Origin: Sphingobium sp. EM0848
GTDB lineage: Bacteria; Pseudomonadota; Alphaproteobacteria; Sphingomonadales; Sphingomonadaceae
Length of the DNA stretch: 64,000 nt
Direction: 5' to 3'
Assembly (NCBI RefSeq): GCF_013375555.1
Contig: NZ_JABXWB010000005.1
Span: 372,001 to 436,000 of the forward strand
The notes beneath the pieces were generated by a model. That model was not told the origin of the DNA, did no database searches, and was given only the letters and a program-made list of their open reading frames with translations. The position numbers and the translations under genes are program-made. Shown piece by piece: positions 13,503 to 40,636 of this stretch. The stretch's first letter is position 1, and each line of letters opens with the position of its first letter.

Positions 13503-16076
13503 TCAGAACGTCTTGCGTAGTTCGAACATGACCGCGCGGCCAACAGCGTTGAGATAGGCTGGCTGATAGGCGAGCGGCGTCACCCCTTGTGCGTCGACGA
13601 CCCGTTGACGGGCGTTGGCGATATTGGTTACGGTAATGCTGATCCGCCCATTCCGAACCCAGCTGCTTCCTGGGAATAAGCGCTGTGTGCTCGTAAATAC
13701 CGTAAGATCGAAGTCGGCCAGTGCCTCAAAGTGGAGCTGACTGGTTGTGCTTGTGCTGACAAATAGCGTGGTTGGGCTTTGCCAGGCGCCGGTTAGGCGA
13801 ATTCCGGAGCCCCGGTCGGTGAAGGAAATAACGCCGTTGATCAAGTGACGCCGTGAACCACCGGCCGGGTCGATTGCGCCGTCGTGGAGCAAATCAATGC
13901 GAGAGAGACTGGAAACGAGCACCGCTGTGCTTTCGAGAAATATGGTATGCGCAAAGTTCACCTCCAGCCGTGGCCTCGGCAGGTCGACGAAGGCTGGATT
14001 GGTGTTTTCACCACCTACTCGCACTGAAGGATCGCTTGGGATCGACCGATGGTAGAAGGGGATGACGAAGGAGACACTGTATCGCAGTGCTTTTTCCTGT
14101 AAGCTGGCGAAGTTGGCCGGCCGGCCATCCACTTGGATCAACTGGCCCGAAGCATCGCGAATGAACCGGTCAGGGAAAGCAGCCATCTCCGCCGCGCTGG
14201 CGGTCGAAACGACGCCAACCTGGTCACGGCTTCTCCTGTCAGTGTACGCCGCCTGCAATTGCAGATCATAATGCGGCAGCGGCGTTATTGACAGCGCCAC
14301 TCGGTAGACGTCGTCGGTCTCTGGCTTTAGCCCCCGATTCCCGCCAGTTGAATAGGTCACGTCCACGGTCTCGTTGCGCACGGGATCATAGGTGCGGACG
14401 TTCTGATAGACCCTTGCAGGTGCGGCCAATATGCCCAAATCGACTGGGTTGCGGGTGCGGTTAAAGCCTCCATTTATCCGCAGCCATGGCCGCAGCTGCC
14501 AGCCGACCGCCCATGAATAACGGTCGAGTGAAGCTTCATCCGTGAGTTCTGTCCGGGCTATATCGAATGACAGTTCGAGATCACCGAGCGGTGAAAACGC
14601 CTTTTGCTTGTTGGTGATCGGAATTGTGATGCCCATCTGCTCGGTAACGTCCGTTCGGCTGAGCAGCGTTCCTCCAAACGACCCGCTTGGCGTAAGCGTG
14701 CCGTGCCCAGCGACAACTGAAGCACGAACTCGAACGTCGCCTGCCGGCAACGAGAAGAGCGGTCCATCAATATTTGCATGTGCCTCGTAGCGCGATGTGC
14801 GACTGCGGCTCAGGTCGATGCTGACCGGAATGAGCGAACCCAACGAAGGATCAAAGGGATTTCTCCGCATGTCGAGTATGATGAAGCCAGGGAATGCAGG
14901 AGATTGGACGATATCGTTCCGGTATTCAACAATGCGGCTTTCGTAATGGCCGCCCAGGTTGGCATGCCATTTGCCTAAATTGGCATCGAAATTCAGGAAA
15001 AGCGATCCGCCGATGGAGTGGCTGCGGTTTTGAAGTGGATGAGCCAAATCGCTGCGGGCAAGCAGGACATCGCGCGAAAATGGCGTATTGATGTTGTCAG
15101 CACTGATAAGGAGCAAAGCGGAAGGCAGGCCAGCCAGCCCATGGCTGTCACCCCACTCAAGATTTCCGCTGAGCGAGGCCGCGAACCAGGATGCAAGTTG
15201 TTTAGTCCAGGCGAGGCTCCCCACATAATTCCGGCTGGCCTGAAGCAGGCTGCGATAGCGACCAAGATCGGTTGTATTTGCCAAGCCGCCCCCGGCGGAG
15301 AAGTCAACGAGCGATGGGTGCAGATTGTTTGCCGGCACGGCTGCGATACTAACGGGAAACCCAACCAGCGCGCTTAGCCGAGGATCAATCGCGACGGCCC
15401 CCAGCGCCGGGATTATGTTGCCGGTCGGGTCATATGGCTGATCTTGCTGTGGCTGAATGATCCCTCGGTCGGCCTCGCGCAACAGGCCGGAATAATGTGC
15501 CCGCAAACTGAGATTGAAGCGGTCTCCATCCCGAATTCGAGTCAGGAGCACTTCGCCGCTGTCTCCGTTCCAATGCCCCTCGGTCGCAAGGTTGTGGCCG
15601 AAGGTAGCCGTGACGCTCGTCATCTGACTACGCAGCACTATGTTGTAGGCTCGCTGATTGGGCGCACCGCCAATTCTCTCGGCAGACCCGCGCGGTAATA
15701 CGTCAATGTGGGAAATCGCTTCGGTTGGGTAATTCTCAATAGCGCTCCGGCTTTGGACGGGCTGGCCGTTGACAAGCAATACAGGCTGCTCATCGCCGTC
15801 CTTCGCAGCAATCTTATCGATCGCCTCGCCAACAGTACTAACGACGTAGGAAGTCAAGCGATCGGTATCATATGTCTGTTCGGGTGAGATTCCGTTTAAT
15901 GCGGCAATCAGTGCCGGATTGGCGGTGACGATGATCGCAGGCCGGGTGAGCTCATTTATCTGCTCGCTAACGCTGGCAACACTCGTGGAGGACTGGCCCT
16001 CAGTCGCTAGCGCGGCTGTAGGCGCCATCAACACCAGTAGCGAGGCCAGCGTGCCAGGAACTCCAAAGACTTTCAT
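13503..16076 (-). CDS. TonB-dependent receptor-like outer-membrane protein (atypical)
   Basis: An 857-residue protein with a signal peptide (FGVPGTLASLLVLMAPTAALA) and a plug-like N-terminal part in which a short secretin-type segment (TVGEAIDKIAAKDGDEQPVLLVNGQPV) and IDVLPRGSAERIGG replace the usual RGP-GTLYG plug signature. The remainder is a beta-barrel of alternating hydrophobic strands ending with FELRKTF, whose terminal Phe suits BAM insertion. The ATG at 16076 is chosen; a GTG at 16091 is in frame and neither has a strong ribosome site. No catabolic partner is adjacent. The ligand is unknown. Confidence 0.75.
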   Translation of the reverse strand: MKVFGVPGTLASLLVLMAPTAALATEGQSSTSVASVSEQINELTRPAIIVTANPALIAALNGISPEQTYDTDRLTSYVVSTVGEAIDKIAAKDGDEQPVLLVNGQPVQSRSAIENYPTEAISHIDVLPRGSAERIGGAPNQRAYNIVLRSQMTSVTATFGHNLATEGHWNGDSGEVLLTRIRDGDRFNLSLRAHYSGLLREADRGIIQPQQDQPYDPTGNIIPALGAVAIDPRLSALVGFPVSIAAVPANNLHPSLVDFSAGGGLANTTDLGRYRSLLQASRNYVGSLAWTKQLASWFAASLSGNLEWGDSHGLAGLPSALLLISADNINTPFSRDVLLARSDLAHPLQNRSHSIGGSLFLNFDANLGKWHANLGGHYESRIVEYRNDIVQSPAFPGFIILDMRRNPFDPSLGSLIPVSIDLSRSRTSRYEAHANIDGPLFSLPAGDVRVRASVVAGHGTLTPSGSFGGTLLSRTDVTEQMGITIPITNKQKAFSPLGDLELSFDIARTELTDEASLDRYSWAVGWQLRPWLRINGGFNRTRNPVDLGILAAPARVYQNVRTYDPVRNETVDVTYSTGGNRGLKPETDDVYRVALSITPLPHYDLQLQAAYTDRRSRDQVGVVSTASAAEMAAFPDRFIRDASGQLIQVDGRPANFASLQEKALRYSVSFVIPFYHRSIPSDPSVRVGGENTNPAFVDLPRPRLEVNFAHTIFLESTAVLVSSLSRIDLLHDGAIDPAGGSRRHLINGVISFTDRGSGIRLTGAWQSPTTLFVSTSTTSQLHFEALADFDLTVFTSTQRLFPGSSWVRNGRISITVTNIANARQRVVDAQGVTPLAYQPAYLNAVGRAVMFELRKTF

Positions 16077-16255
16077 CGCCTGCGCTTTCACGAAACGAGA
16101 TGCGTAAACGTCAGCCGTTGCGCAGTAATCCTACGTAACATTCGAAAGGCAAGGCAAGCTGATTCGATAGGATACCGAATTGTCCAACAGAGCGGCCATA
16201 GACACTGCCTATGATGGCTCGATGAACGAAGGACCACTCCGGGCCTTCGGCTCTC

Positions 16256-16576
16256 AAACAGGATCTGGACAGCGCGGAGATTTCCGGTAGCCTTGCGGAT
16301 GATCGATGCCGTGGTTCGGCGCAGAGAATGGGTACCATAATCCTCGCTAGGCAGCCCAATTCCCGTGACCCAATCATCGACAAGGCGGGCATATTGCCTG
16401 GTGCTTATGTGGGCAGCGTGGTCGGTACGGCCGGGGAATGCATAATCCTCCAGGGGTCCACCCCGCAGCTCGAGCCATTTGAGGAGGCTGGCGCGAACAT
16501 CTGCCATCAATTCAAATTGAACCGGCCTGCCGGTCTTTTGCTGAACGACAGTCGCCCGTGTTCGAATTTTCCGATC
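16256..16576 (-). pseudogene. Tyrosine recombinase (integrase) catalytic-core remnant
   Basis: The peptide TRATVVQQKTGRPVQFEL, EDYAFPGRTDHAAHISTRQY and YGTHSLRRTTASIIRKATGN is the middle of a phage-type integrase, with the conserved HxLRR box. The N-terminal arm and core-binding domains are missing, and after RAVQIL the expected LGH and catalytic tyrosine segment is replaced by unrelated sequence. It lies between the amine operon and the atypical receptor gene, so it may mark the edge of an acquired segment. Confidence 0.65.
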
Positions 16577-16614
16577 ACAAACAATCGGGGTTTTCCGGGT
16601 AAAATCGCGACAGG

Positions 16615-17412
16615 TTAGAGCGCAGCAGTCCTGACAGTGAGCCATTGCGACAGACTGCCCAATGGTCCAGCACTGTCATGGATAATGCTGTGCGTCAGGC
16701 CACCGCCAGAGCGGCCGAAGGATACTGAGACATCAAGGCCGAGCCACTCGCCAACAGGCTCGCGGAAGAGATGTGCGGTGAGATCAAGATTCGGGAAAGC
16801 CGTCGTGGCTGGCGAAGTCAGCGGAGAAATGCCGTTCGCAATGTCGGCCAACATCATCAAACGGGCCGTCGGCGACACAGACTCTCCTTCGACCAGCTGA
16901 CAGGATGAGCGTACCCAGGCGCTTGCTCTTCCGGGCCGTTCCTCCTTGCGGCGAACCTCCACACTCCGAATAAAACCGCCAGGCCAGAGTAAAGTCGGAT
17001 CACAGGACGGCATCGCGTCGACTGGGTCGATGGGATGCAGATTGGTCGCGGCCAGTGCGTGGCTGTCATAGCCCTTCGCCAGCCACGCGCGCAGGATAAC
17101 GGCCGGGCGCCCGCCATGGTTGAGCCGGGCTTCCACCAGCTCGATCGTCCGTCCCGGCCGAATGACCGCGACGTCGATACTGACCGCTTCCATCGGGATC
17201 GTGCCCAATATGTCATAGGACAGGCGCCCGATCTGCAACCGATCGGTCCGGCGGCCATGATGATCCGCCTCTATGACGTGGGCCATGAGGCCGAGCGCCG
17301 GCGCGACATGCTGTTCCGCCACATTCCACGCGCCGCTGACATGTTCGCTTGGCATGAACCGGTTCGTATCAATCCGGCGGAAATAGGCGCTTGATCCGCC
17401 GGTTGCATGCAT
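16615..17412 (-). CDS. Acyl-CoA thioesterase family protein
   Basis: A 265-residue protein with the double hot-dog pattern of the TesB/4HBT_3 thioesterase family: an N-terminal half with PSEHVSGAWNVAEQHVAPAL and a C-terminal half ending VSFGRSGGGLTHSIIHDSAG. It should hydrolyse an acyl-CoA to acid and CoA. The ATG at 17412 has a GGAG nine bases upstream; an in-frame ATG at 17430 without a ribosome site is the alternative. It is last in the amine operon, starting 16-34 bases after the acyl-CoA ligase stop, and may recycle CoA or remove dead-end thioesters (inference). Confidence 0.75.
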   Translation of the reverse strand: MHATGGSSAYFRRIDTNRFMPSEHVSGAWNVAEQHVAPALGLMAHVIEADHHGRRTDRLQIGRLSYDILGTIPMEAVSIDVAVIRPGRTIELVEARLNHGGRPAVILRAWLAKGYDSHALAATNLHPIDPVDAMPSCDPTLLWPGGFIRSVEVRRKEERPGRASAWVRSSCQLVEGESVSPTARLMMLADIANGISPLTSPATTAFPNLDLTAHLFREPVGEWLGLDVSVSFGRSGGGLTHSIIHDSAGPLGSLSQWLTVRTAAL

Positions 17413-17445
17413 GAAATTCTTCTCCGTCATCTCAATGAGCGCCAA

Positions 17446-19077
17446 TCAGGCGCGAAGGTCAAGTTCCGCCTCCATGATCCGACGCATTTCGAATTTTTGC
17501 GCTTTACCCGTCACCGTCATTTCGAAGCTTTCGACGATGCGGACATAACGCGGCATCTTGAAATGCGCGATCCGTCCACGGCAATGATCCAATATGTCCT
17601 GCTCGGACAGGCTAACGCCGGATTTAGGAATGATCCAGGTGCAGACTTCCTCGCCATATTTGGCGTCGGCCACGCCGAAGACCTGCGCGTCGGCGATCGC
17701 CGGATGGCGTAACAGAAACTCCTCGATCTCGCGCGGATATATATTCTCGCCGCCCCGGATGATGAGATCCTTGATGCGGCCGGTGATCCGCACATAGCCC
17801 TTCTCGTCCATGGTCGCGAGGTCGCCCGAATGCATCCAGCCCTCGACATCAATCGCCTCGGCCGTACGCTCCGGATCGTTCCAGTAGCCCAGCATCACAG
17901 CATAGCCGCGCGAGCAATATTCACCCTGCTCGCCAAAGGGCAGGATAGTGCCGTCGGGCCCGACAATCTTCGCCTGGGCGTGGGGATGGATGCGTCCGAC
18001 CGTGGCGACCCGCTCCTCCAGTGGATCGTCTGTCACCGTCTGGGTCGTGAGCGGGCTGGTTTCGGTCATGCCGTAGCCGATGGTGATTTGCGTCATGTGC
18101 AGCCGGTCCATCACCTGCCGCATGACCGTCTCCGGACAGGGCGACCCTGCCATGATCCCGGTGCGCAGCGTCGACACATCATGGCCGGCGAGATCGGGAT
18201 GGTTGAGGATGGTGATGAACATGGTCGGCACGCCATGCAGCACGGTGCAGCCCTCCGCCGTGACCGCCTCCAGCACCAGCTTCGGGTCATAGGCCTCGCC
18301 GGGATAGACCATCGCCGCGCCGCTGGTCAGCGCCGCCATATTGCCCAGCACCATGCCGAAACAATGGTAGAGCGGCACCGGGATGCACAGCCGGTCGGCG
18401 GCCGACAGGCGCATCGTCCGGCCCGAGAAATAGCCGTTATTGAGGACGTTGCGATGGGTCAGCGTCGCGCCCTTTGGCTGGCCGGTGGTGCCGCTGGTGA
18501 ACTGGATGTTGATGGGGTCGTTGCGGTCGAGCGTCGCCTCGATGACGGTCAGGCGGTCCGTATCGGCATCGCGCAGCAGGTCGGCCCATGACAGCAGGCC
18601 GTCATGCCGCTCCTCTCCCAACAGGACGATATGGCGCAGGTCGGGCAGCGCTTCCGCCCCGATCTCCCGCAGCATCGCCACATAGTCGCTGCTCTTGAAG
18701 CGCGACGCCGTGACCAGCACGGAGCAGCCCACCTTGTTCAGCGCATAATCGACCTCGCTGGTGCGGTAGGCGGGGTTGATGTTGACCAGGATCGCGCCGA
18801 TCCGCGCCGTGGCAAACTGGATGACCGTCCATTCCGCGCAATTGGGCGCCCAGATGCCGACCCGGTCGCCCTTCCCGACGCCCAGCGCCAGCAGCCCAGT
18901 CGCGGCCCGGTTCACCTCGTCCAGAAATTGCCGCCAGCTCCAGCGAATAGCCTGATGTCGCGACACCAGCGCCAGCCCTTCGCCATTTTCCTCCGCGACC
19001 TTCAGCAAAGCCGTACCGATGGTCATTTCCAGCAGCGGGACGTCGGTGGCGCCCCGCGTGATCGACAGGCCGCTCAT
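17446..19077 (-). CDS. AMP-binding acyl-CoA synthetase (FadD type)
   Basis: A 543-residue adenylate-forming ligase. Motifs: IQFTSGTTGQPKGATLTHRN near residue 190, IGYGMTETSP near 340, hinge ITGRIKDLIIRGGENIYPRE near 430 and catalytic lysine in TVTGKAQKFEMR near 525. It overlaps the aldehyde dehydrogenase stop by four bases (ATGA), so it is translationally coupled. In context it probably activates the acid made from the amine-derived aldehyde, for example a phenylacetate-like or fatty acid. The exact substrate is not visible. Confidence 0.9.
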   Translation of the reverse strand: MSGLSITRGATDVPLLEMTIGTALLKVAEENGEGLALVSRHQAIRWSWRQFLDEVNRAATGLLALGVGKGDRVGIWAPNCAEWTVIQFATARIGAILVNINPAYRTSEVDYALNKVGCSVLVTASRFKSSDYVAMLREIGAEALPDLRHIVLLGEERHDGLLSWADLLRDADTDRLTVIEATLDRNDPINIQFTSGTTGQPKGATLTHRNVLNNGYFSGRTMRLSAADRLCIPVPLYHCFGMVLGNMAALTSGAAMVYPGEAYDPKLVLEAVTAEGCTVLHGVPTMFITILNHPDLAGHDVSTLRTGIMAGSPCPETVMRQVMDRLHMTQITIGYGMTETSPLTTQTVTDDPLEERVATVGRIHPHAQAKIVGPDGTILPFGEQGEYCSRGYAVMLGYWNDPERTAEAIDVEGWMHSGDLATMDEKGYVRITGRIKDLIIRGGENIYPREIEEFLLRHPAIADAQVFGVADAKYGEEVCTWIIPKSGVSLSEQDILDHCRGRIAHFKMPRYVRIVESFEMTVTGKAQKFEMRRIMEAELDLRA

Positions 19078-20477
19078 CGCTTGACGTTGATGACTTGCAG
19101 CTGGGCATATTCGGCCAGCCCTTCTTCGGCCTGCTCGACGCCCAACCCTGAGTTTTTGAAGCCGGCCATGGGGATATGCGGCCCGATGGCGATATGCTGG
19201 TTGACCCAGACCTGCCCGCTTTCGATCCGCGCCGCGATGTCCGAAGCACGCGCCACATCGGCCGACCAGACCGACCCGCCCAGCCCATATTCCGACGCAT
19301 TGGCTCTGGCGATCACATCCTCCACATCATCGAATTTTATGAGCGGCAGGATCGGGCCGAACTGTTCCTCATCAACGATCTTCATGCCGTCGGTCACGTC
19401 GCGCACGATGGTCGGCTGGATGAAATAGCCCGCCCGTTCGATGACCTGACCGCCCGCGATGACCTTGCCTTCTGCCATGGCCGCGTCCAGAAAGCCCTTC
19501 ACCTTCTCATATTGCATGGCGTTCTGAATCGGACCGATCTGCGTGCCCTGCTCCAGTCCGTCGCCCACGATGGCGGCCTGAGCCAGCTTGGCCAGTTCCT
19601 CGCACATCGCGTCGTAGATGTCGGCATGGACATAGGCGCGCTTTACCGCCAAGCAGACCTGCCCGCAATTCAGAAAAGCATTGCCGAAGATCGCCTTAGC
19701 CGTTTCGCGCACATCGACATCCTCCAGCACGATCGCCGGATCATTGCCGCCCAGTTCCAGCGTCACGCGCTTCAGGCTGTCGGCACCACTGGCAGCAATG
19801 CGCTTGCCGGTCGCGGTCGATCCGGTGAAGCCGATCTTGGCGACATCGGGATGGGCGGTCAGATGCGGCCCAAGGTCATTGGCATCGGTGATGATATTGA
19901 CCACGCCAGCCGGGAATATTTCGCGGCAAAGCGCGCCCAGCGCCAGCGCGGTCACCGGGGTTGTGGGCGCAGGTTTCAGGACGATGGCATTGCCGGCCAG
20001 CACTGCCGGACCGATCTTCCAGCAGGCGACCAGCAACGGGAAATTCCAAGCGATGATTCCGACCACAACGCCCAGCGGCCTGTGCTTGACCGCAATATAG
20101 CCGGCCTCATCATCCTGAATCACCCGGTCAGGCAGTTCCAGCGTCGCATAGTGGCGCAGGAAACCCTCGGTCCAGGCAACCTCTCCCTGCGCTTCAGGCA
20201 GCGGCTTGCCCTGTTCCTGCGTCAGCAGGCGCGCCAGTTCGAGACCATTGGCGGCAACCGCATCGGCCAGCGCAACCAGCTTAGCCTGTCGTTCGGCAAA
20301 GGGCACTGCCGCCCAGCCAGGCTGCGCCGCCTTGGCCGCGGCGATGGCTTCATCCGCCTGACGCGCCGAAGCACGAGCCACGGTCGTGAAGGGCACACCG
20401 GTCGCAGGATTGACCACCTCCATCTGCAGCGCACCGTCGACCAGATCGCCGCCGATCAGCAGCTTATAATCCGCCAT
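19074..20477 (-). CDS. Aldehyde dehydrogenase
   Basis: A 467-residue NAD(P)-dependent aldehyde dehydrogenase with the Rossmann loop FTGSTATGKRIAASG near residue 215, the general-base glutamate in LELGGNDPAIVLEDVDV near 250 and the catalytic cysteine in NCGQVCLAVKRAYVH near 285. Length and C-terminal bridging motif are standard. It follows the TonB receptor by 42 bp, across a strong hairpin, with AAGGAGAGGAAG before ATG. In the amine operon it should oxidise the aldehyde released by the amine dehydrogenase to the acid (inference from order). Confidence 0.92.
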   Translation of the reverse strand: MADYKLLIGGDLVDGALQMEVVNPATGVPFTTVARASARQADEAIAAAKAAQPGWAAVPFAERQAKLVALADAVAANGLELARLLTQEQGKPLPEAQGEVAWTEGFLRHYATLELPDRVIQDDEAGYIAVKHRPLGVVVGIIAWNFPLLVACWKIGPAVLAGNAIVLKPAPTTPVTALALGALCREIFPAGVVNIITDANDLGPHLTAHPDVAKIGFTGSTATGKRIAASGADSLKRVTLELGGNDPAIVLEDVDVRETAKAIFGNAFLNCGQVCLAVKRAYVHADIYDAMCEELAKLAQAAIVGDGLEQGTQIGPIQNAMQYEKVKGFLDAAMAEGKVIAGGQVIERAGYFIQPTIVRDVTDGMKIVDEEQFGPILPLIKFDDVEDVIARANASEYGLGGSVWSADVARASDIAARIESGQVWVNQHIAIGPHIPMAGFKNSGLGVEQAEEGLAEYAQLQVINVKR

Positions 20478-20491
20478 CTTCCTCTCCTTTG

Positions 20492-20513
20492 GGGAGCCGG
20501 TCGTCCGGCTCCC
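20492..20513 (-). terminator. Intercistronic hairpin after TonB-receptor gene
   Basis: GGGAGCCGG, four-base loop, CCGGCTCCC: a perfect nine-pair stem just after the receptor stop and before the aldehyde dehydrogenase ribosome site. There is no U-tract in the operon direction, so partial attenuation or 3'-end stabilisation of the upstream message is more likely than full termination. Confidence 0.6.
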
Positions 20514-20519
20514 ATTATT

Positions 20520-22697
20520 TTAGAATTTCGCGCCAACCGTTACACCATAGCTGCGCGGATTGCCGATATGGTTATAATCGAAGCCAAAGCCCGCGAGCAA
20601 ATCGACCCGTGAAGTGAAGTAGAACTTCTTGGTCAGATTCTTCGCCCAGAGAGAGGCGTTGAAACGCCCATTCTTGCTTTCCCAGTCAATATGGCCGCTG
20701 AGCAGGGCATAACCCTTTTGCTTCAGGCGGGGGATATTGAGCACTTCGAAATATTGGCTCGACTGATAAGCGACTTCGGGATGGACCGAGATATTGCCGA
20801 AGCTGCCGTCCACCACCGTCCAGTCGATCCCGCCATTCAACGTCAGGGCCGGTGCATTGGACAGATGATTGCCCGACACGTCAACGCCGCTGACGGTGCC
20901 CTGCTTGATCTTCGCCGAAAGCAGCCCCATGCCCGCACGCATGGTCAGATCGTCGGTCGCCCGAATGGTCAGTTCAGCTTCGCCGCCATAGATACGCGAC
21001 TTGGGAATATTGAGAAGTGTCTGCGCGGCGCTTGCAGGATCGACGTTGATGAACTGCTGGTTCTTGTAATCATAATAGAAAACCGCAGCATTTAGCGTGA
21101 CTCGGCGATCCCAGAACTGAGTCTTTGCACCCAGTTCATAGGATGTGACCTGCTCCGCCTTGGCAACCGACAGTTCCGACGGATCAAAAAATGCCTGAGC
21201 ATTAAAGCTCGGTGCGCGATATCCACGGCTGACACTGACATAGATCAGATTACCGCCTGCCAGCTTATAGTCGACGCCGATCTTGCCTGAGAAATTATCC
21301 TTCTTGAAGCGGAGGTCCGACAGAGGAATGAGTGTTGCGACAACATTATTGTCCACACCCAGCGCCTGCGAAATGAAGCCGCTCTGTCGCCCCGTATCAT
21401 GGGTATAGCGCAGGCCACCGCGTAGCGTGACAGCCTCCCCGATCTTATATTTGAGATCAGAATAGATGGCGTAGCTCTTCTTGACCTGATCGAACTGGTT
21501 CTGGATTTTGCAGGCAACGGGCAAGCCGTCTGCACAATCCTGCCCATTGATCACGCCGTCTTCATTGACATCGACATCTGTAGCGATTTCGAAAGCAGTG
21601 CGATTGAACACTTTTTCCCGATTGAAGTAGGCACCCAGAATGAAGTCGAACGGGCCTCCAGTGTCACTGGTCAGGCGCAGGTCCTGCGCGAATTGGCTGG
21701 CCTTGTCATAATAGGGGATTTCCAGCAGTTTCGAGGCCGTCCCGTCTGTATCCTCCCGGAAGAAGAGCTTGCCTCGGTCATAGGAAGTAATGCTGGTCAG
21801 CGCCAGACTGTCGGAAAGATCGACATTGGTTGTCAGAGCCACCGAAGTCGTGCGCGCGCGGCGTCGGTCAGGCACGTCGGAGGCGATCTGCCAACGCGAC
21901 AGGCCGGGACGGTTTATGGCTTCGGGCTGCGCATAAATGCCGTAATTTTGGGGATTCTGGAAACTGGTCGACGCGCGCAGAACAAAGGTCAGCCCCTCGA
22001 CTGGCTCAGCCTTCAGCGTGCCGCGCACCGCATATTCACGGGTGCTGGCAAGGTCAGGCATTCCCGGAACGACATTCTTGAACCAGCCGTCCGCCCGCGC
22101 AAAGGTGCCTGCCACGCGCAGCGCGGCCTTTTCACCCAGCGGGACATTGACCGCGCCATTGGCCTCATAGCGGCTATAATTGCCATATCCCAGGTTGATA
22201 TAGCCGCTGGTCTCGCCCAGCTTTGCCTCGCGGCTGATGATGTTGACCGCGCCGCCCGTCGTGTTCTTGCCATAGAGCGTACCCTGCGGTCCGCGCAACA
22301 CTTCGACCCGTTCCAGATCGTACATGGCGACGCCCAGAAAGGCGAAATTTCCCTTATAGACTTCATCATAATAGGTTGCGACCGGGCTGGACTGGTTAAG
22401 GCTATAGTCCGACATTGAAACGCCACGTAGAGCGAAGATCGGTGTGTTGTCTCCAACGATCGACGTCAGTTGAAGATTGGCAACCTTGGTCACAAGACTA
22501 TCGACATTGCTGATGCGTGACTTGGCCAGACTATCGCCACCGATCGCGGAAACAGAAATCGGCACCGATTGCACATTTTCTGATCGCTTGGCAGCCGTCA
22601 CGACGATTTCGCCCTGCGGCGTCTCCTGTGCGAGCGCCTGTCCTGACAGGACAAGGCTGGTCAAGGCGACTGCTACCCCTAGATAATGTTCCCCCAT
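20520..22697 (-). CDS. TonB-dependent receptor of the amine operon
   Basis: A 725-residue outer-membrane receptor with a signal peptide (cleavage near QALA-QE), a TonB-box-like EIVVTAAKR, plug domain with VEVLRGPQGTLYGKNTTGGA near residue 125 and a barrel ending GVTVGAKF with terminal Phe. The ATG follows GGAGGATAAGTCC. It lies 15 bp after the cytochrome genes inside the amine dehydrogenase operon, so it probably imports the amine or a larger molecule that carries it. Energised transport of a simple amine would be unusual, because small amines cross porins. Confidence 0.9.
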   Translation of the reverse strand: MGEHYLGVAVALTSLVLSGQALAQETPQGEIVVTAAKRSENVQSVPISVSAIGGDSLAKSRISNVDSLVTKVANLQLTSIVGDNTPIFALRGVSMSDYSLNQSSPVATYYDEVYKGNFAFLGVAMYDLERVEVLRGPQGTLYGKNTTGGAVNIISREAKLGETSGYINLGYGNYSRYEANGAVNVPLGEKAALRVAGTFARADGWFKNVVPGMPDLASTREYAVRGTLKAEPVEGLTFVLRASTSFQNPQNYGIYAQPEAINRPGLSRWQIASDVPDRRRARTTSVALTTNVDLSDSLALTSITSYDRGKLFFREDTDGTASKLLEIPYYDKASQFAQDLRLTSDTGGPFDFILGAYFNREKVFNRTAFEIATDVDVNEDGVINGQDCADGLPVACKIQNQFDQVKKSYAIYSDLKYKIGEAVTLRGGLRYTHDTGRQSGFISQALGVDNNVVATLIPLSDLRFKKDNFSGKIGVDYKLAGGNLIYVSVSRGYRAPSFNAQAFFDPSELSVAKAEQVTSYELGAKTQFWDRRVTLNAAVFYYDYKNQQFINVDPASAAQTLLNIPKSRIYGGEAELTIRATDDLTMRAGMGLLSAKIKQGTVSGVDVSGNHLSNAPALTLNGGIDWTVVDGSFGNISVHPEVAYQSSQYFEVLNIPRLKQKGYALLSGHIDWESKNGRFNASLWAKNLTKKFYFTSRVDLLAGFGFDYNHIGNPRSYGVTVGAKF

Positions 22698-22712
22698 GGA
22701 CTTATCCTCCGT

Positions 22713-23183
22713 TCATGGTTTTCCCTGTTCCGATCCTGCATTTTCAAATTCTGCGACCAGCCGCGCTCTTGTAGCGACGCGGTCGAGCCGCAGGGGATTG
22801 CGCCGCAGCGCGCCGATTTCCTCGGCCGTATAGGGCCTGAAATCGGGAGGCAGATGCTCTGCGTCGAATCTGTGCAACGTCCAGTTGACCAGTTCCGCCA
22901 GCCGCCTGTCGTCCAGATTGACGGTCGCAACGCCGGGCACCTGGCCGACAAATTCCCGCCCGCCCGGCACCGTCAGGAAACGGCCGACAATGCCGCGCAT
23001 CGGCGGGTTGGAACGGTCATCTCCACCACCGTCCGGGCGATGGCAGCCCTGACACTTCAATATATAGTCCTGATGGGCCTGGGCGGCATTGGTGACACCC
23101 GGTATCGGCTGCTCGCCCGCCCGCGCCGCCAGCGCTACGGTCATCGCAGCAAAGGCCGTCAGGACGAGCGGCGCACCTTTCAT
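22713..23183 (-). CDS. Periplasmic monohaem cytochrome c
   Basis: A 156-residue protein with a signal peptide (MKGAPLVLTAFAAMTVALAA) and one haem site C-Q-G-C-H near residue 45; a possible axial methionine is in NPPMRGIVG. Only one CxxCH is present, so it is not a MauG-type dihaem enzyme. It starts inside the end of the neighbouring cytochrome gene (four-base overlap). Likely an electron acceptor from the quinoprotein amine dehydrogenase or the next carrier toward the oxidase. Confidence 0.85.
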   Translation of the reverse strand: MKGAPLVLTAFAAMTVALAARAGEQPIPGVTNAAQAHQDYILKCQGCHRPDGGGDDRSNPPMRGIVGRFLTVPGGREFVGQVPGVATVNLDDRRLAELVNWTLHRFDAEHLPPDFRPYTAEEIGALRRNPLRLDRVATRARLVAEFENAGSEQGKP

Positions 23184-23635
23184 TTGCCGCCCGCTCCTTC
23201 ATGCAGCTTCGCGACATCTGCAGCACTCAATCCGCCGCCACCCGCCCGATAACCGGCGACCTCCTTGTCGGTGAAGGGGCGAAAGGCCGGGCCAGCCTTG
23301 GCGATGGTGCCGCCGACATGGTTCAGCACGGCCGCGATGCCCGCATCGTCCAGCCCGCCCTGCGCAGGCATCATGCCGCGATAGGGCTTGCCCTCCACCA
23401 TGATCGGGCCATTCAGCCCCTTGATCACGGCCAGCGCCAGATAGCGGCGTCCTTCCGGCCTGGCCGCCAGCAAGCGAAAATCGGCATTGAGCGGCGGATA
23501 GGCCCCCGGCACGCCTGCTCCCGTCCGGGTGTGGCAGGCAGCGCAACGGTTATAGATGGTCGCACCATCAGGCGCGGCATGGGCAGGCGCGAAGGCCATG
23601 AACGCGACCGGCAGAACGGACAGAAGCGGCCTCAT
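23180..23635 (-). CDS. Periplasmic monohaem cytochrome c
   Basis: A 151-residue class I cytochrome c with signal peptide (MRPLLSVLPVAFMAFAPAHA), haem site C-A-A-C-H near residue 31 and the axial methionine region MMPAQGGLDDAGIAAVLNHV. The ATG at 23635 overlaps the stop of the light-subunit gene as ATGA. A longer frame starting at 23680 lies inside that gene and is rejected. The position directly after the light-subunit gene is where amicyanin (mauC) sits in methylamine clusters, so it may be the direct electron acceptor of the TTQ enzyme (inference). Confidence 0.87.
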   Translation of the reverse strand: MRPLLSVLPVAFMAFAPAHAAPDGATIYNRCAACHTRTGAGVPGAYPPLNADFRLLAARPEGRRYLALAVIKGLNGPIMVEGKPYRGMMPAQGGLDDAGIAAVLNHVGGTIAKAGPAFRPFTDKEVAGYRAGGGGLSAADVAKLHEGAGGK

Positions 23636-24177
23636 TTCGGCTGCTCCAGTGCGGTGCCGACAATCGCCGCGACCGAGCAATTATAAACGCTGCTCTCCGT
23701 GCCCAGGCACCAATTATAATCGTTGTTGGACTGGGGCCGGACTTGCGGCCGATCGCCCTCGTTGCGATTGCACAGGCACTGGCCGCAGGATGTCGTGCCG
23801 CAACAGTCATTGTAGCTGATGATATAGGCGCGGCCGTCCGCCGGGTTGGTGCAGGTGCCGATCCAGGTGATCGGCGACATTTCCGTGCCCGGCGGGCAGC
23901 TGTTCACCGTCCCGCCGCAGCAGGAACAGAGGAAGCCGTCGATCGCGCAATAGCGCCAATAATCGCAGCTCGCCTGATTGCCGGGATCCTGCATCGTGCC
24001 CGACGTCATTTCCGGGCGCGCGGCATCGGGGTGGGTGGCAGCGCGCGCCACCGGCAGGGCGGGAAAGGCGGCTGCGCCTGTCATCCCAGCCCCCAGCCAG
24101 GCGAGCAGTGAACGACGGGACGTGCTGCGCGCAACGCCCCGCGCCAACTTTTCGGTCAGCTTGTCAAAACCGGCCAT
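23632..24177 (-). CDS. aauA: Aromatic amine dehydrogenase light (TTQ) subunit
   Basis: A 181-residue precursor of the small catalytic subunit of tryptophan tryptophylquinone amine dehydrogenases. A Tat-type signal (SRRSLLAWLG, R21-R22) is followed by a mature part with fourteen cysteines for the disulfide web. The cofactor tryptophans correspond to W105 (PITWIGTC) and W156 (NNDYNWCLG), and the catalytic aspartate to D124 (NDCCG). The signatures GFLCSCCGGT and SPITWIGTC match the aralkylamine enzyme of Alcaligenes faecalis more closely than methylamine dehydrogenase, from memory of those sequences. The conserved threonine after the last cysteine is serine here (S168). Product acts in the periplasm with the heavy subunit. 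Confidence 0.92.
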   Translation of the reverse strand: MAGFDKLTEKLARGVARSTSRRSLLAWLGAGMTGAAAFPALPVARAATHPDAARPEMTSGTMQDPGNQASCDYWRYCAIDGFLCSCCGGTVNSCPPGTEMSPITWIGTCTNPADGRAYIISYNDCCGTTSCGQCLCNRNEGDRPQVRPQSNNDYNWCLGTESSVYNCSVAAIVGTALEQPK

Positions 24178-24180
24178 GGG

Positions 24181-24771
24181 TCAGGCCTCCTTCCGGCGAC
24201 GGGCGAGGAAATCCTGGATCGACGCGACACCGCGCTCCTTCGCCTCGAACAGGCTTTCCAGATGCTCGCGGCTGTTGATGAGGCCCAGAGAGGCAACCTT
24301 GCCACCTTCATCCAGCAGGACCGCATAGGGCAGCTTCGCCACGCCGTAGGCCCGGCCCAGCGCCTCGGACAATATTAGCGGCAACCCCTCCAGCCCATGC
24401 TCGGTCGCCATGGCGCGATAGGCGGACTTCGACCCGTCGCCAGCGATCACCACATCGATCCAATCCGCTTCGGCCCGCGCAGCCGACCGCAGTACTGGCA
24501 TCAGCGACTTGCAGATCGAACAGTCCGGAGAGGCAAAGAAGAGAAGCTGGCTACGCCCGTCTCGCTTGCCCCCGATGGTGAGCTTTGCATTGTCAATGGT
24601 GGTGACATCCATCGGCGTCGCCGTTTCACCGATCTTCACGCCCTGATGCAGGGTTAGTGCACCGGCTGGGGCGATCCGCTCGTGCAGGATACCGACCTGC
24701 CGCGCGAGTGCGGCGATGAGCAGCGCCTGGGCAACGACCGCCGCCCACAGCAAAATCTGGGAAGTCAGCAT
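24181..24771 (-). CDS. mauD: Amine dehydrogenase maturation protein MauD-like
   Basis: A 196-residue membrane-anchored thioredoxin-fold protein: N-terminal hydrophobic helix (residues 4-22) and active-site FFASPDCSICKSLMPV with a C-x-x-C pair. MauD helps form or correct the disulfides of the light subunit. The ATG at 24771 overlaps the MauE stop by one base (TGATG); a longer in-frame start at 24984 lies within mauE and is rejected. The gene ends three bases before aauA. Confidence 0.9.
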   Translation of the reverse strand: MLTSQILLWAAVVAQALLIAALARQVGILHERIAPAGALTLHQGVKIGETATPMDVTTIDNAKLTIGGKRDGRSQLLFFASPDCSICKSLMPVLRSAARAEADWIDVVIAGDGSKSAYRAMATEHGLEGLPLILSEALGRAYGVAKLPYAVLLDEGGKVASLGLINSREHLESLFEAKERGVASIQDFLARRRKEA

Positions 24772-25262
24772 CAGTTTTTCCTCCACGAAGGCTGGGGAAT
24801 GGCGAGAATTTCCGAAGCGCCCAGAAAGAGCGCCAGAAAAGCGGCGGCGGCGAAGGGCGCGTCCAGCGTGAACGGCGCCTGCGGGACAAGAACCGCTCCA
24901 GCAGCCAACAGCGCCAGCGCGACCGGCCGCAGGATCTGCGCCAGACCGACGGGCCGTTCCCGTGCCACCAGATCGCATCCGCAATCAAGCGACTGACCGC
25001 GACGGCGCAGCAAGGCCAGCGCATAGCCTGCCCAGAGCGCGATAGCGATGACTGCCCCGACAAGGCGCAAGGCCGGCACCAGCCAGCATAGCGCGGCGGT
25101 CATTTCTGCCGCTCCCGCCGCGATCAGCAGCAGCGGCCCGGCCTGCTGGCGAGCCCCGGCCAGACGCGCCGCGGCCAGAGCGAGCCGCTCGCGGTCCACC
25201 GCCTTGTGCACCGCCGACATACCCAGCAGCATCGCGAGGAAGAGAGGCAGCGCCGCCATCAC
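24771..25262 (-). CDS. mauE: Amine dehydrogenase accessory membrane protein MauE
   Basis: A 163-residue protein with four hydrophobic segments (about residues 4-20, 42-60, 65-83 and 105-150) and a cysteine pair in LDCGCDLVARERPVG between segments. MauE belongs to the DoxX/VKOR-like membrane proteins that pass oxidising power to MauD for light-subunit disulfides. It overlaps the heavy-subunit gene by four bases at its start and mauD by one at its end, so the cluster is tightly coupled. Confidence 0.88.
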   Translation of the reverse strand: MMAALPLFLAMLLGMSAVHKAVDRERLALAAARLAGARQQAGPLLLIAAGAAEMTAALCWLVPALRLVGAVIAIALWAGYALALLRRRGQSLDCGCDLVARERPVGLAQILRPVALALLAAGAVLVPQAPFTLDAPFAAAAFLALFLGASEILAIPQPSWRKN

Positions 25263-26428
25263 GGCACCGCGATCACAAAGGGGTTGGCCGCAACCGTCGC
25301 GCCCAAAGTGCGAACGAAGGCACCGCTCGCCGCGTCATGGACGTCAATCACGCCATCCGTCCGCGCGACGATCAGTTGCGGCTTGTCCTCATGTGTAACC
25401 GCGATCGCCAGCCCCTGCCCCTTCAGCGCGATCCGTGACAGGCGCATCTTCTTAACAGGGTCGACCACCCAGACTTCGGTTCCGCCGTCCTTATGGCTGC
25501 CTTCCTTGCCATTGGGGCTCATCAACACATAGAGCAACCCCTTGGCGTCGGCGCTAATGACCTGCCAGCCGCCAGGTCGCCATTGCGGCGCACCGCCTGC
25601 CGCCGTGCCGACGCTGAACATGCCTGGCAAAGGCCGGGCGACCGGGCCGGACAGGTCGATGCCCTGGATCATGCCATAAAAGCTGACGAACCAGGCCGTG
25701 CGCCCGACCATCGCCGGAGTGCCGAACAATGGCTGCTTGTCGATATCATGGACCTTGGCGATGCTCTTGGAGGAAGCCGCCTGCCCCTTGTCATCCAGAG
25801 CCACGCTGAACATGGATCCATCGGCGCACAGGCTGCTGAAGCCGCGATCCCCGCTGGGATAGATTTGCGTGCAGCCGGGAAGGTCGATCTCGTTCAACAC
25901 CTTGCGACCTTCCAGATCGACGACCGTGACGGATTGGGCCGGGGTGAAATTGGCAACAAGCGCCCATTTGCCGCCATTGGTGAACTGGAACAGATTGGGA
26001 TAGGTGACAGACAATTGCCGCTTGCCGCCGGGCAGCAAGATCTCACCCTTGGGCTGGAGCGATTTCATATCCCATATGGTTATCGCATCCGTCCGCTCTC
26101 CACGGGTCAGGCGGCTGTAGAATGTTTCCGCAGTGTAAATCTCTCCGCGCTCGGGCGACACCAGTTCATTGGCGAACTGCGCGGCGCGCACCAACCCCTT
26201 GAGTGGTCGCCCCGGCGAGGCCGTATCGACCACCGCCAGTTTCCCGTCCAGGATCGAGGCAAAGTTCAGATCATGGATCAAAACCCAGCTTTTGGGCCAG
26301 GTTTCCGGCAGGCTACCGACATTAGGTATCTGCTCTTCCGGCAGAGGTTTGGGATAGTCTGCCGTGCCTGCCAGCGCAGGTCCCGACACGACTGCAAACA
26401 GCAACGCACTAAGGGCAATCGACCGCAT
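25259..26428 (-). CDS. aauB: Aromatic amine dehydrogenase heavy subunit
   Basis: A 389-residue periplasmic protein with signal peptide (MRSIALSALLFAVVSGPALA) and a seven-bladed propeller pattern. Family segments are FYSRLTRGERTDAITIWD, FVSFYGMIQGIDLSG, QWRPGGWQ and LMSPNGKEGSHKDGGTEVWV. These resemble the heavy subunit of aralkylamine dehydrogenase more than MauB. It scaffolds the TTQ light subunits in an alpha2-beta2 enzyme and shapes the substrate channel. It is first in the leftward operon; mauF, which precedes mauB in methylamine clusters, is absent here. The start has a GGTGGGAGGAACC ribosome site. Confidence 0.92.
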   Translation of the reverse strand: MRSIALSALLFAVVSGPALAGTADYPKPLPEEQIPNVGSLPETWPKSWVLIHDLNFASILDGKLAVVDTASPGRPLKGLVRAAQFANELVSPERGEIYTAETFYSRLTRGERTDAITIWDMKSLQPKGEILLPGGKRQLSVTYPNLFQFTNGGKWALVANFTPAQSVTVVDLEGRKVLNEIDLPGCTQIYPSGDRGFSSLCADGSMFSVALDDKGQAASSKSIAKVHDIDKQPLFGTPAMVGRTAWFVSFYGMIQGIDLSGPVARPLPGMFSVGTAAGGAPQWRPGGWQVISADAKGLLYVLMSPNGKEGSHKDGGTEVWVVDPVKKMRLSRIALKGQGLAIAVTHEDKPQLIVARTDGVIDVHDAASGAFVRTLGATVAANPFVIAVP

Positions 26429-26602: not shown

Positions 26603-27238
26603 ATGATCGAACTCGACATCCCAGAACGCGACGGCGGCTATTCCAAGGGAAATGAGACACGCGAACTCATCCTTCGCACCGCTCTCGAAATCCTGATCGA
26701 GGAAGGGTATCGCGCCATGAGCATGCGGCGAGTCGCGATCGCCTGCGGAATGAAATTTGGCAATCTCACCTATCATTATCGCAGCCGGGAAGACCTTGTC
26801 CGCGAACTGCTCGAGGCTGTCATCCGCAGCTATGAGGTGGAATTCGACCAGATCGTCCACATGTCCAGCGCTTCGGCGCAGGAGCGGCTGCAGCGGATTT
26901 GCACCTTCATATTGGAGGATATCCGTAGCAAGAAGACGACGCGTATTTTCCCCGAACTATGGGCACTTTCCAACCATGACGCCTTCGTCCTGGCGCGAGT
27001 TCAGGAGCTTTACGGTCGCGCCCGTGCACCGCTGATCGAGATTGTAGGCGATATCCGTCCCGATTTGCCGATAGCCGACCGCGAAGCCATCGCCCTTTTC
27101 ATTTCGGCCTCCATGGAGGGGATGACCCCATTTGCCGGCTATGAAAAGCCATTTGAGCCGCTGATGCCCAAGCTGAGCGATATCGCCATTCATTCATTTG
27201 TTTCGCTCGTTGAGACCTTTGGTCGCGACAGTAATTGA
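26603..27238 (+). CDS. TetR family regulator, divergent from amine operon
   Basis: A 211-residue protein with an N-terminal TetR helix-turn-helix (residues 20-66: TRELILRTALEILIEEGYRA, then VAIACGMKFGNLTYHYRSRE) and a helical ligand domain. The ATG follows TTAAGGAAGC. Divergence from the heavy-subunit gene and the tandem palindromes between them suggest it represses or activates the amine operon and itself. The inducer would be the amine or a CoA product (inference). Confidence 0.88.
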   Translation: MIELDIPERDGGYSKGNETRELILRTALEILIEEGYRAMSMRRVAIACGMKFGNLTYHYRSREDLVRELLEAVIRSYEVEFDQIVHMSSASAQERLQRICTFILEDIRSKKTTRIFPELWALSNHDAFVLARVQELYGRARAPLIEIVGDIRPDLPIADREAIALFISASMEGMTPFAGYEKPFEPLMPKLSDIAIHSFVSLVETFGRDSN

Positions 27239-27303: not shown

Positions 27304-27408
27304 TAGAGCATGATCCGATCAGGTTGAATCAGATCATGCTCTCATTTTCTTTTGTTTTCCGCATTTTCCGAGTCGTCAGATGTTCCCATCTGACTTGAAA
27401 ATGCTCTA
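27304..27408. repeat. Two-hairpin dispersed repeat
   Basis: The element starts with AGAGCATGATC (27305-27315) paired with GATCATGCTCT (27332-27342), then has a second hairpin GTCAGATG-ttcc-CATCTGAC (27375-27394), and closes with ATGCTCTAA, complementary to the opening. A related copy is at 50469-50573, sharing the second hairpin and the tail. The right end supplies the stop codon of the AraC gene at 27406. Confidence 0.75.
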
Positions 27409-28275
27409 AACGTTTGAAGCGGTCTTGCGATAGATATGCGGCGCTACGCCTGTCGCGCGCTTAAAAGCGGCTGAAAAAGCGCTGGGCCCTGAAAAGCCGA
27501 GCTTGTAGGCGATCTGTTTCAGAGGCAACTGCGTCTCGATGAGCAAGGTGCGCGCGCGACGGAGTCGGATGTCCTCAACATAGCGCGTGATCGTTGTCCC
27601 TGTAGTCGCCTTGAACAGCCGACGGAGATGTGAAGGGCTCACACCACATAATTCGGTGAGTTTGGTCAATGTGACCGCATGCCCCTCGGCTTCTTCGGCA
27701 TATTCCCGGATTCGCGCGAGTTGCCAACCAGCCAGCACACCATCGCCATTGGTCGGCAGACAATGGCGTGCCAAGCTACGTCCGAGTTCGGCGAGCGCCA
27801 GGCGGCTCAGCCCATCGACAGCAAGCAGGTGAGCAAAGCCGGGACTACCGACCTCGTCGGCCATCATCCACAATGTACGCTCGAGCAGTGGCGTGCTGGC
27901 CTTGAAACAGGCTTCCAGGTAGTCGGTGCTGTCATAGCTTGCAATCCCCGTGCAAGCTTCGAAAAAGGCGGCTTCGAAATCGCAATAGATTGCTGATTGG
28001 ATCGGGTTCTCTCCGCTTAAGCGTGCCTTCCAATCTACACCGGCCGGAATGCAGTTGAACCGGCTCATCGGCACAAATTTCCGAGAACTGCCATAGCAAG
28101 CGTAGCCATGCGGACGGTTGACGTCCGACAGCCACATTCCGATCTGATAAGTCTGCTCACATCCCGAGAGTTCAGGCGGAAGTTTGCCACCCTGCGGCTC
28201 ACACAGCCTGACGACAGCATCATCGATTGTCGTCGTAGCGAGCCGTCGCTCATTCCAGGATGTCGATGCCGTCAA
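27406..28275 (-). CDS. AraC family transcriptional regulator
   Basis: A 289-residue regulator with an uncharacterised N-terminal sensor half and the C-terminal double helix-turn-helix (LTKLTELCGVSPSHLRRLFK, then IRLRRARTLLIETQLPLKQI and LGFSGPSAFSAAFKRATG). Its last codons lie in the dispersed repeat, so the C-terminus (TASNV) may have been shaped by repeat insertion. It faces away from the SnoaL/OYE genes across about 200 bp and is the likely regulator of that unit. Confidence 0.88.
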   Translation of the reverse strand: MTASTSWNERRLATTTIDDAVVRLCEPQGGKLPPELSGCEQTYQIGMWLSDVNRPHGYACYGSSRKFVPMSRFNCIPAGVDWKARLSGENPIQSAIYCDFEAAFFEACTGIASYDSTDYLEACFKASTPLLERTLWMMADEVGSPGFAHLLAVDGLSRLALAELGRSLARHCLPTNGDGVLAGWQLARIREYAEEAEGHAVTLTKLTELCGVSPSHLRRLFKATTGTTITRYVEDIRLRRARTLLIETQLPLKQIAYKLGFSGPSAFSAAFKRATGVAPHIYRKTASNV

Positions 28276-39619: not shown

Positions 39620-40636
39620 ATGACGTTGCCAAAGGTTGAACGCTTTCCGATGCCGATTCCCTATGGCTGGTTCGGGATCGGCTATGCTGCCGAACTGAAA
39701 GTGGGCGATGTCCGTGCAGTCCATTATTTCGGGCGCGACCTCGTGTTGTTCCGCAACGAAGAAGGCATGGCCGGGTTGCTCGATGCCTATTGCCCACATC
39801 TGGGGGCGCATCTTGGGCAGGGTGGCCGGGTTGAGGGCGACAGCATCCGCTGCCCCTTCCATGCCTGGGCCTTTCGGCCCGACGGCTTTTGCAGCGCCAT
39901 TCCCTATGCCAAGGCATTCCCGCCGCGCGCCAAACGGGAGCCGCTGGCACGATCCTATCCCATCGAAGAGAAGAGCGGCATCATCTGGGCCTGGTATCAT
40001 CCCGATGATGTGGCGCCCATGTTCGACGTCATCGATTATCCCGAATTCACCGACCCAAGCTGGGCCGAGCCGACGAAGCGCGAATGGCGCTTCGCCAGCA
40101 ATCCCCAGGAAATTGCCGAGAACGGTGTCGACGTCGCACATTTCGCCTATGTCCATGCCATGGACGCAGTGCCCGAGGGAGAAACCCATTATGACGGCGT
40201 ATTGCGACACAGCGTCGCGCGGGGTCATCGCACCATCGACCTGCCGACAGGCGAGCGCAAACAGCTCCCTTATTCGGTCAAAACAGTCCAGAATGGCGCC
40301 GGACAGAAATTCACACGGTTGAGCGGGCTCGTGGAACTCTCGCTGCTCGTGATCGCAACTCCAGTCGAGGCCGACGACGTCGAGCTCCGCTTCTGCTTCA
40401 CTCACCCGAAGGTAGAACCCGGATCACCGCAGGAACAGGCAATTGCGCAGGCGATCGAGAATACCTGCGGGCAAAAGGGTGTCGAGGGTGACATACCGAT
40501 CTGGCACAACAAGATTCACCGCGCCCAGCCCTTTCTGTGCGATGGCGACGGTCCGATCCTGCGCTTCCGGCGCTATTTCGAGCAATTTTACGCCGACGGT
40601 CCAGACGGCACTCGCCTCGTCGAAGCGGCCGAATAA
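39620..40636 (+). CDS. Rieske non-haem iron oxygenase (KshA-like)
   Basis: A 338-residue oxygenase. The Rieske cluster is C-P-H near residue 59 and C-P-F-H near 77 (CPHLGAHLGQGGRVEGDSIR, then CPFHAW). The mononuclear iron site is NGVDVAHFAYVHAM (two His plus a later acidic residue) near 172. Length and motif spacing match the 3-ketosteroid 9-alpha-hydroxylase (KshA) and related monooxygenase group. No reductase or ferredoxin gene is next to it, so electrons must come from elsewhere. The ATG at 39620 lies very close to its GGGAG; the TTG at 39626 could be the true start. Confidence 0.88.
   Translation: MTLPKVERFPMPIPYGWFGIGYAAELKVGDVRAVHYFGRDLVLFRNEEGMAGLLDAYCPHLGAHLGQGGRVEGDSIRCPFHAWAFRPDGFCSAIPYAKAFPPRAKREPLARSYPIEEKSGIIWAWYHPDDVAPMFDVIDYPEFTDPSWAEPTKREWRFASNPQEIAENGVDVAHFAYVHAMDAVPEGETHYDGVLRHSVARGHRTIDLPTGERKQLPYSVKTVQNGAGQKFTRLSGLVELSLLVIATPVEADDVELRFCFTHPKVEPGSPQEQAIAQAIENTCGQKGVEGDIPIWHNKIHRAQPFLCDGDGPILRFRRYFEQFYADGPDGTRLVEAAE

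Follow-up and report, generated by a model that had tools for sequence, protein, structure and literature searches.

We identified, in a 64,000-nucleotide stretch of the Sphingobium sp. EM0848 genome (contig NZ_JABXWB010000005.1, positions 372,001 to 436,000; hereafter the window), an operon of ten tightly packed minus-strand genes (16615-26428) which, judged from its sequence, is a real and conserved variant of the aau kind of tryptophan tryptophylquinone (TTQ) amine dehydrogenase cluster, with a TonB-dependent receptor (TBDR) and an acyl-CoA ligase added. The gene order is aauB-mauE-mauD-aauA-cyt1-cyt2-TBDR-ALDH-acyl-CoA ligase-thioesterase, where aauB and aauA encode the heavy and light chains, cyt1 and cyt2 two monoheme c-type proteins, and ALDH an aldehyde dehydrogenase. 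The coordinates, strand and named families of these ten leftward genes, as given in the original prediction from the DNA letters, were all borne out (Table 1). We consider it probable that the operon serves the catabolism of one class of primary amine (R-CH2-NH2), with uptake through the TBDR, oxidation by the TTQ enzyme, activation of the product as a CoA ester and formation of TTQ independently of MauG. Sphingomonads are known degraders of difficult compounds, and the operon would provide them with a pathway reserved for an amine, complete with a gateway of its own in the outer membrane.

The window encodes a TTQ amine dehydrogenase of the aau type

The assignment of the enzyme to the TTQ amine dehydrogenases, with subunits of the methylamine dehydrogenase (MADH) and aromatic amine dehydrogenase (AADH) families, was upheld by the PF02975 and PF06433 matches and by the conserved TTQ residues. 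The heavy chain found its best Protein Data Bank (PDB) matches in the AADH structures 2h3x and 2hkm (166 and 165 bits). The light chain aligned to AADH and MADH structures (3c75/2agl) with both TTQ tryptophans and the catalytic aspartates in place (W109, W160, D84 and D128, in AADH numbering). Residue columns were counted in an alignment of 157 rows, grouped according to whether a TBDR lay downstream (TBDR-down), upstream (TBDR-up) or nowhere in the gene run, and gaps were not counted as letters. The TTQ tryptophan columns were Trp, and the D128 column Asp, in every lettered row, while the D84 column departed from Asp in four rows, with Ser in two that lack a TBDR and His and Gly in one TBDR-up row each. 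At the position of Thr172 the window has Ser, as do all 83 TBDR-down rows with a letter there. In the heavy chain, the Phe of the AADH motif TAFNGH, the gate Phe of AADH and MADH, corresponds to a column that is Gln in the window. Of the TBDR-down rows, 77 have a letter in this column, 76 of them Gln and one His, and three have a gap; three of four mau rows have Phe.

Sequence comparison supports grouping the window enzyme with the aau and not with the mau enzymes. In the light-chain tree the four mau rows separate with 100% SH-aLRT support, and the window has the aauBEDA order. Both chains missed the methylamine dehydrogenase equivalog cut-offs (TIGR02658, 154 versus 454 bits; TIGR02659, 174 versus 197 bits), and profile scans found no mauF or mauG family among the ten cluster genes. 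The label 'aromatic-type' in the original prediction holds for the side of the tree but finds no backing as a statement about substrate, as the AADH of Alcaligenes faecalis sits on a different, long-ended branch. With 5.64 Mb in 5 contigs and a completeness of 100%, the window's own genome (G000) gave a single PF02975 match, which is the window light chain. Its nearest relatives came from Sphingobium (91-93% identity) and a Sphingopyxis metagenome-assembled genome (91%), in a search from which records of the same or very near genomes may be missing.

The aau cluster of A. faecalis has aauBEDA as its core, followed by a small cytochrome, and is not known to have mauF or mauG nearby. The window resembles it in this core, in the small cytochrome that follows and in the TTQ residues (structures 2agl and others were matched), and differs in having the TBDR, acyl-CoA ligase, thioesterase and TetR regulator, the gate Gln, and Ser in place of T172. 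The earlier claim that the cluster is unlike the classical ones stood for the TBDR and the ligase, which are new, but went too far for the remainder, as both cytochromes and sometimes the ALDH are already found in aau clusters. A Cupriavidus plasmid carries aauBEDA, two cytochromes and an ALDH, Burkholderia arboris (L195) does likewise by hidden Markov model (HMM) matching, and a Pseudomonas plasmid carries aauBEDA with two cytochromes, so that the additions come down to the TBDR and the ligase. The mau clusters (Paracoccus denitrificans, L194; Methylobacterium, L197) have the B-E-D-A core and its order in common with the window, but carry mauF, mauJ, MauG (where not cut), NapGH-like genes and mostly amicyanin. 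None of seven mauF loci gave a cyt2 match. Neither cyt1 nor cyt2 was matched in four mau loci, weak cyt1-type matches occurred in L215 and L218, and the annotated stretches of the mau loci held no TBDR or ligase. Plasmid pNL2 of Novosphingobium aromaticivorans (L191), with the order TBDR-cyt-aauBEDA-cyt2, shares with the window the TBDR coupling and the position of cyt2 after aauA. It differs in that the TBDR lies upstream and is only 28% identical, and in that no ALDH or ligase is annotated in the stretch. On pNL2, 3-oxoadipate and catechol genes follow the cluster, and an amidase and a ring dioxygenase lie upstream of it. A literature search, with subscription journals mostly outside its coverage, returned among the matches listed no link between AADH and a TonB receptor and no report of AADH TTQ maturation.

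The gene order is conserved among sphingomonads

The original prediction had proposed a search for the same gene order in sphingomonad genomes, and this search found one unit with TBDR, ALDH and ligase kept across many of them. Our survey covered 212 light-chain relatives in species genomes, of which the best 80 loci were kept, and a TBDR was counted when it lay within the same gene run, runs being allowed gaps of 900 bases. Among the 56 kept loci with more than 6.5 kb of downstream sequence, 50 had a TBDR downstream and 40 had TBDR, ALDH and ligase together. Over 150 loci from all sources, duplicates included, the TBDR lay downstream in 85 and only upstream in 17; it was absent from 35 with enough flank, and 13 were too short. 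Counted as 143 distinct light chains, these classes held 67 (downstream), 16 (upstream), 32 (none) and 10 (too short), with 18 not classified. Loci outside the family (n = 12) had no TBDR in the run in nine cases and an upstream TBDR in three. Since the order is common to tens of other genomes, the arrangement is not a product of chance.

The light-chain tree (77 rows, built by a quick method, one row labelled by hand) placed the window in a clade of 27 rows with 100% SH-aLRT support, of which 24 have the TBDR downstream, one upstream and two not at all. pNL2 fell in a separate clade of nine rows (seven upstream, two none), and a further clade comprised 14 sphingomonad rows without a TBDR. The fact that TBDR-coupled rows occupy separate clades, taken together with the locus counts, indicates at the genomic level that coupling of a TBDR to a TTQ dehydrogenase is a repeated feature of sphingomonads.

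The TetR regulator adjoins aauB in most related loci and belongs to the conserved block, beyond the ten genes originally listed. The thioesterase, listed there as a member of the operon, is present in the window but is lineage-specific, occurring in only six places among the related loci (the window, L002-L005, and L038, where it does not directly follow the ligase). A second ligase lies between ALDH and ligase in Sphingopyxis, Sphingosinicella and a few others, and in seven loci enoyl-CoA hydratases follow the ligase immediately or at a short distance. A long open reading frame (ORF) follows the ligase in L009, L013, L014, L037 and L046; it spans some 1566 residues before the locus ends and resembles propionyl-CoA synthase, with AMP-binding, enoyl-CoA hydratase and zinc-dependent alcohol dehydrogenase domains.

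A cytochrome without the axial-Met loop is a candidate for TTQ formation

cyt2, which the original prediction had taken for an ordinary cytochrome, turned out to be an unusual one. It has a single CxxCH motif and the c552 fold, as judged by a profile match and by fold comparison, and its axial-Met loop is missing: residues 50-71 of Thermus cytochrome c552 (1c52), including Met69, are without counterpart in the profile match. cyt1 matched 2fwl/1c52 with 91 bits over most of its chain, Met ligand loop included. Across the cyt2 family a Pro is nearly invariant (148 of 149 rows), and the column before it is Val, Leu or Ala in 149 of 149 lettered rows. The heme of cyt2 seems to have lost its axial ligand, which bears on how TTQ is formed in aau clusters, which are not known to have mauF or mauG.

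The same pairing of a Met-bearing and a loop-less heme was found within single proteins. We searched with P0001, itself a cyt1-cyt2 fusion cut at its start, and considered the best 120 of 561 matches. Among the matches listed were natural cyt1-cyt2 fusions (P0121-P0158), proteins of about 300 residues that hold both halves. Of these, 36 were fetched and 35 aligned, with P0205 left out for its degenerate first half; the shorter P0122 and P0156 were not fetched. In the 35 aligned fusions the first half has an invariant Met and the second half lacks the loop; one of them reads CQGCP instead of CQGCH. In a scan of 369 genomes that scored the best 6 candidates of each, no fused gene stood beside aauA. 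A structural model of a fusion reached a pTM of 0.57, so the placing of its two hemes was not used.

The association of cyt2 with the light chain is close. Of 397 family genomes, 39 have a light chain, and cyt2 (E<=1e-18, best 10 candidates per genome scored) was found in the same 39 and in none of the other 358. It lies directly downstream on the same strand in all 51 light-chain copies of these genomes, and the one cyt2 copy in 52 without a light chain is at a contig end. In the 369 genomes, which belong to another class, all eight matches to the cyt2 half (E<=1e-30, best 6 candidates per genome) were beside a light chain. Among 166 loci (143 distinct), cyt2 was present in 156, and the stretches fetched for these gave no HMM match to mauG or mauF above the thresholds applied; mauG and mauF occurred without cyt2 in five, mauF only in two whose contigs end early, and neither in three (L032, which is cut, L214 and L217). 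The MauG family (PF03150) was matched in 25 of 48 light-chain genomes, or 23 of the 45 graded good, and no MauG-family gene was found by this search in the other 22 good ones. In further light-chain genomes it was matched in 10 of 11 (5 of 6 good), three of the 11 holding mauF.

The linkage to the light chain, the absence of cyt2 from mau clusters, the missing Met loop and the existence of MauG-less genomes together make cyt2 a candidate TTQ-maturation protein, and that it makes TTQ is a proposal we hold tentatively, somewhat short of an even chance. MauG-dependent formation of TTQ is described for methylamine dehydrogenase in passages of PMC7876137, PMC6405878 and PMC7699789, which make no mention of how AADH matures. 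cyt2, which would do the same job if the proposal is right, differs from MauG: it is a monoheme c552-type protein that has no PF03150 match and no two c-hemes in one chain. Diheme peroxidases were not among the matches listed in the fold comparisons of cyt2, which may still have that fold. The cyt1-cyt2 fusions resemble MauG in having two c-hemes; in a fusion, only one of the two is accompanied by a Met-bearing loop. A shade more cautiously, cyt2 may be the founder of a previously unrecognised family of heme proteins that form TTQ, as a c552 whose Met loop was removed for peroxide or oxygen binding and a split counterpart of MauG. With the same added caution, it might in this role work beside, or fused to, a Met-ligated c552. 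A cyt2 maturase would explain AADH-type TTQ without MauG and would mean that TTQ biogenesis was invented twice.

The main rival to cyt2 making TTQ is plain electron transfer, in which cyt2 is only a dedicated electron acceptor or relay and TTQ matures autocatalytically or through an unlinked enzyme; we put this close to an even chance. cyt2 is, after all, a c-type cytochrome of the c552 fold, and a partner of AauA that merely took up electrons would show the same tight linkage. Some MauG-family gene is carried by 28 of 51 good light-chain genomes. Against this rival stand the 22 of 45 good genomes in which no MauG-family match was found. The loss of the axial-Met loop across the aligned family would also be unusual for an electron carrier, and cyt1, or the c-550-like protein upstream on pNL2, already provides an ordinary one. 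Several further observations weigh against a maturase. No other ligand of cyt2 is invariant, yet one column of the family is Met or Leu (Met in 88 of 150) and another has His in 75 of 132. Four of the 35 fusions (P0147-P0150) depart from the others around Val-Pro-Gly, where they have a Met. L214 and L217 are extra aauB/aauA copies within one genome (G888) that have neither cyt2 nor mauG. The mutual exclusion of cyt2 and mauG follows one deep split of the tree, so that the association, although strong, is close to a single evolutionary event. For cyt1, which would be the partner, matches came from no more than 109 of 155 loci, so that it is less constant than cyt2.

We note that L214 and L217 have no mauD match nearby either, and that the third copy in G888 has cyt2. 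A MauG encoded elsewhere in the window's own genome was considered as maturase and rejected, since the only PF03150 match (L189:8334-10403) is split by a transposase-like ORF.

Proposed pathway, substrate and role of the receptor

In the catabolic pathway that we favour, the TBDR would pull the amine across the outer membrane and the periplasmic dehydrogenase AauB2A2 would oxidise it to aldehyde and ammonia. From TTQ the electrons would pass to the respiratory chain by way of cyt1, with its Met-ligated heme, or of another cytochrome c. In the cytoplasm the ALDH would turn the aldehyde into an acid, from which the ligase would make a CoA ester for further breakdown. MauE and MauD are expected to fold the light chain and form its disulfide bonds. 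TTQ would be made without MauG, with cyt2, its heme presumably open at the sixth site, as candidate for this step, acting by itself or paired with a Met-ligated heme. The operon is probably under repression by the divergent TetR regulator.

The ALDH and ligase recur in a second setting. Plasmid pSWIT01 of Rhizorhabdus wittichii (L242) has the same ALDH (81%) and ligase (72%) behind a leading quinoprotein dehydrogenase, with a TBDR nearby, as in the window; there, however, a pyrroloquinoline quinone (PQQ) alcohol dehydrogenase takes the place of the TTQ amine dehydrogenase, and the TBDR is a different one. The pair would accordingly serve an aldehyde whichever quinoprotein makes it, and by analogy this suggests a module whose first quinoprotein is exchanged according to an alcohol or amine end group. 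A TBDR-ALDH-ligase set is also known from the polyethylene glycol operons of Sphingopyxis. We infer a primary amine as the substrate, its acid being activated as a CoA ester. The original prediction put forward a bulky amine or amine conjugate, a possibility with which the gate Gln and the TBDR agree, both indirectly. Identifying the amine would name a natural substrate of TTQ enzymes. The ligase itself was also tried as a guide to substrate and led to no conclusion, as fatty-acyl and feruloyl-CoA synthetases score alike.

An ordinary phenylethylamine or tyramine system like that of A. faecalis AADH, with TBDR and ligase as accessories, appears unlikely. Both chains are indeed closest to AADH or MADH structures, and a few related loci carry upstream genes for an HpaD-like LigB dioxygenase, a gamma-glutamylputrescine-synthetase-like enzyme and a P450. 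The gate column, however, is Gln in almost every TBDR-down row where AADH has Phe, and the ligase with the enoyl-CoA hydratases suggests chain shortening rather than a phenylacetate route. The upstream blocks in question (L007, L008, L009, L011, L014, L037 and L040) comprise a glutamine amidotransferase, the P450, the gamma-glutamylputrescine-synthetase-like enzyme and an ALDH, with the LigB dioxygenase in six and a QhpR-type regulator in four, and are perhaps a second amine route.

The receptors found directly behind cyt2 are 59-93% identical to that of the window, except in L028, L073, L076, L079 and L081 (27-49%), whereas the other TBDR matches in these loci reach 24-33% identity, except two in L075 (59 and 64%). 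Two facts sit uneasily with amine import: the 35 of 150 loci that lack a TBDR in the run despite enough flank, and the nearest solved relatives of the receptor, which are the siderophore/colicin receptors for pesticin (FyuA) and colicin I. A receptor that brings in iron, heme or a siderophore to serve the two cytochromes, and not the amine, is nevertheless improbable: these best PDB matches and the top NCBIfam subfamily, TonB-siderophor (168 bits, under the cut-off of 223.5), speak for it, but the TBDR sits in the middle of a catabolic operon across many genera, a different receptor lies upstream of aauBEDA on pNL2, and a sphingomonad TBDR is reported to take up a lignin-derived aromatic (PMC6874591). 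Reading the ligand from the receptor sequence gave weak siderophore/colicin matches and 47-53% identical plasmid relatives in mixed contexts, and led to no conclusion.

Gene junctions and neighbouring features

Four-base overlaps had been described at many junctions. With start codons checked, plain four-base overlaps were certain at three (aauA/cyt1, cyt1/cyt2 and ALDH/ligase) and perhaps present at a fourth, aauB/mauE, where the overlap is four bases with the GTG start or one base with the ATG start; the other junctions differ. mauE and mauD overlap by one base with an ATG start, and a reading of -4 would need a CTG start. The other spacings are +3, +15 and +42, and that of the thioesterase is 0 (TTG start) or +15 (ATG start).

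Table 1. Genes of the operon and the divergent regulator, in window coordinates
Feature	Position	Strand	Matches and remarks
aauB-like TTQ amine dehydrogenase heavy chain, 389 aa	25259..26428	-	PF06433, 154 bits (cut-off 21)
MauE-type membrane accessory protein	24771..25262	-	PF07291, 44 bits; start GTG 25262 or ATG 25259
MauD-type thioredoxin-like accessory protein	24181..24771	-	TIGR02661, 174 bits, below cut-off 188.6 (scored from 24774); start ATG 24771
aauA-like TTQ light chain, 181 aa	23632..24177	-	PF02975, 167 bits (cut-off 25)
cyt1, monoheme cytochrome c, Thermus c552 type	23180..23635	-	PF00034 (Cytochrom_C), 37 bits
cyt2, monoheme c552-type protein without axial-Met loop	22713..23183	-	no Pfam family at E<=0.001
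TBDR, 725 aa	20520..22697	-	PF00593 barrel, 144 bits; PF07715 plug, 55 bits
ALDH	19074..20477	-	PF00171, 495 bits; PDB 8yen, 489 bits
Acyl-CoA ligase, AMP-binding, PRK12583-like	17446..19077	-	PF00501, 328 bits; NF009233, 807 bits (cut-off 832)
4HBT_3 acyl-CoA thioesterase, last gene	16615..17445	-	PF20789/PF13622 (4HBT_3/3C); start TTG 17445 or ATG 17430
TetR/BetI-like regulator, divergent from aauB	26603..27238	+	PF00440, PF13977

Rfam and tRNA scans matched nothing. An AraC regulator (27406-28275) was considered as QhpR and rejected at 59 bits against a cut-off of 250 bits. The downstream end of the operon is abutted by a tyrosine-recombinase-like fragment (16088-16645, minus strand; PF00589, 27.7 bits), and just downstream, at 13503-16091 on the minus strand, a second long ORF resembles a TonB receptor by eye. 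The window also holds a Fic-domain protein (31735-32730, minus strand) and a KshA-like Rieske oxygenase (39620-40636, plus strand).

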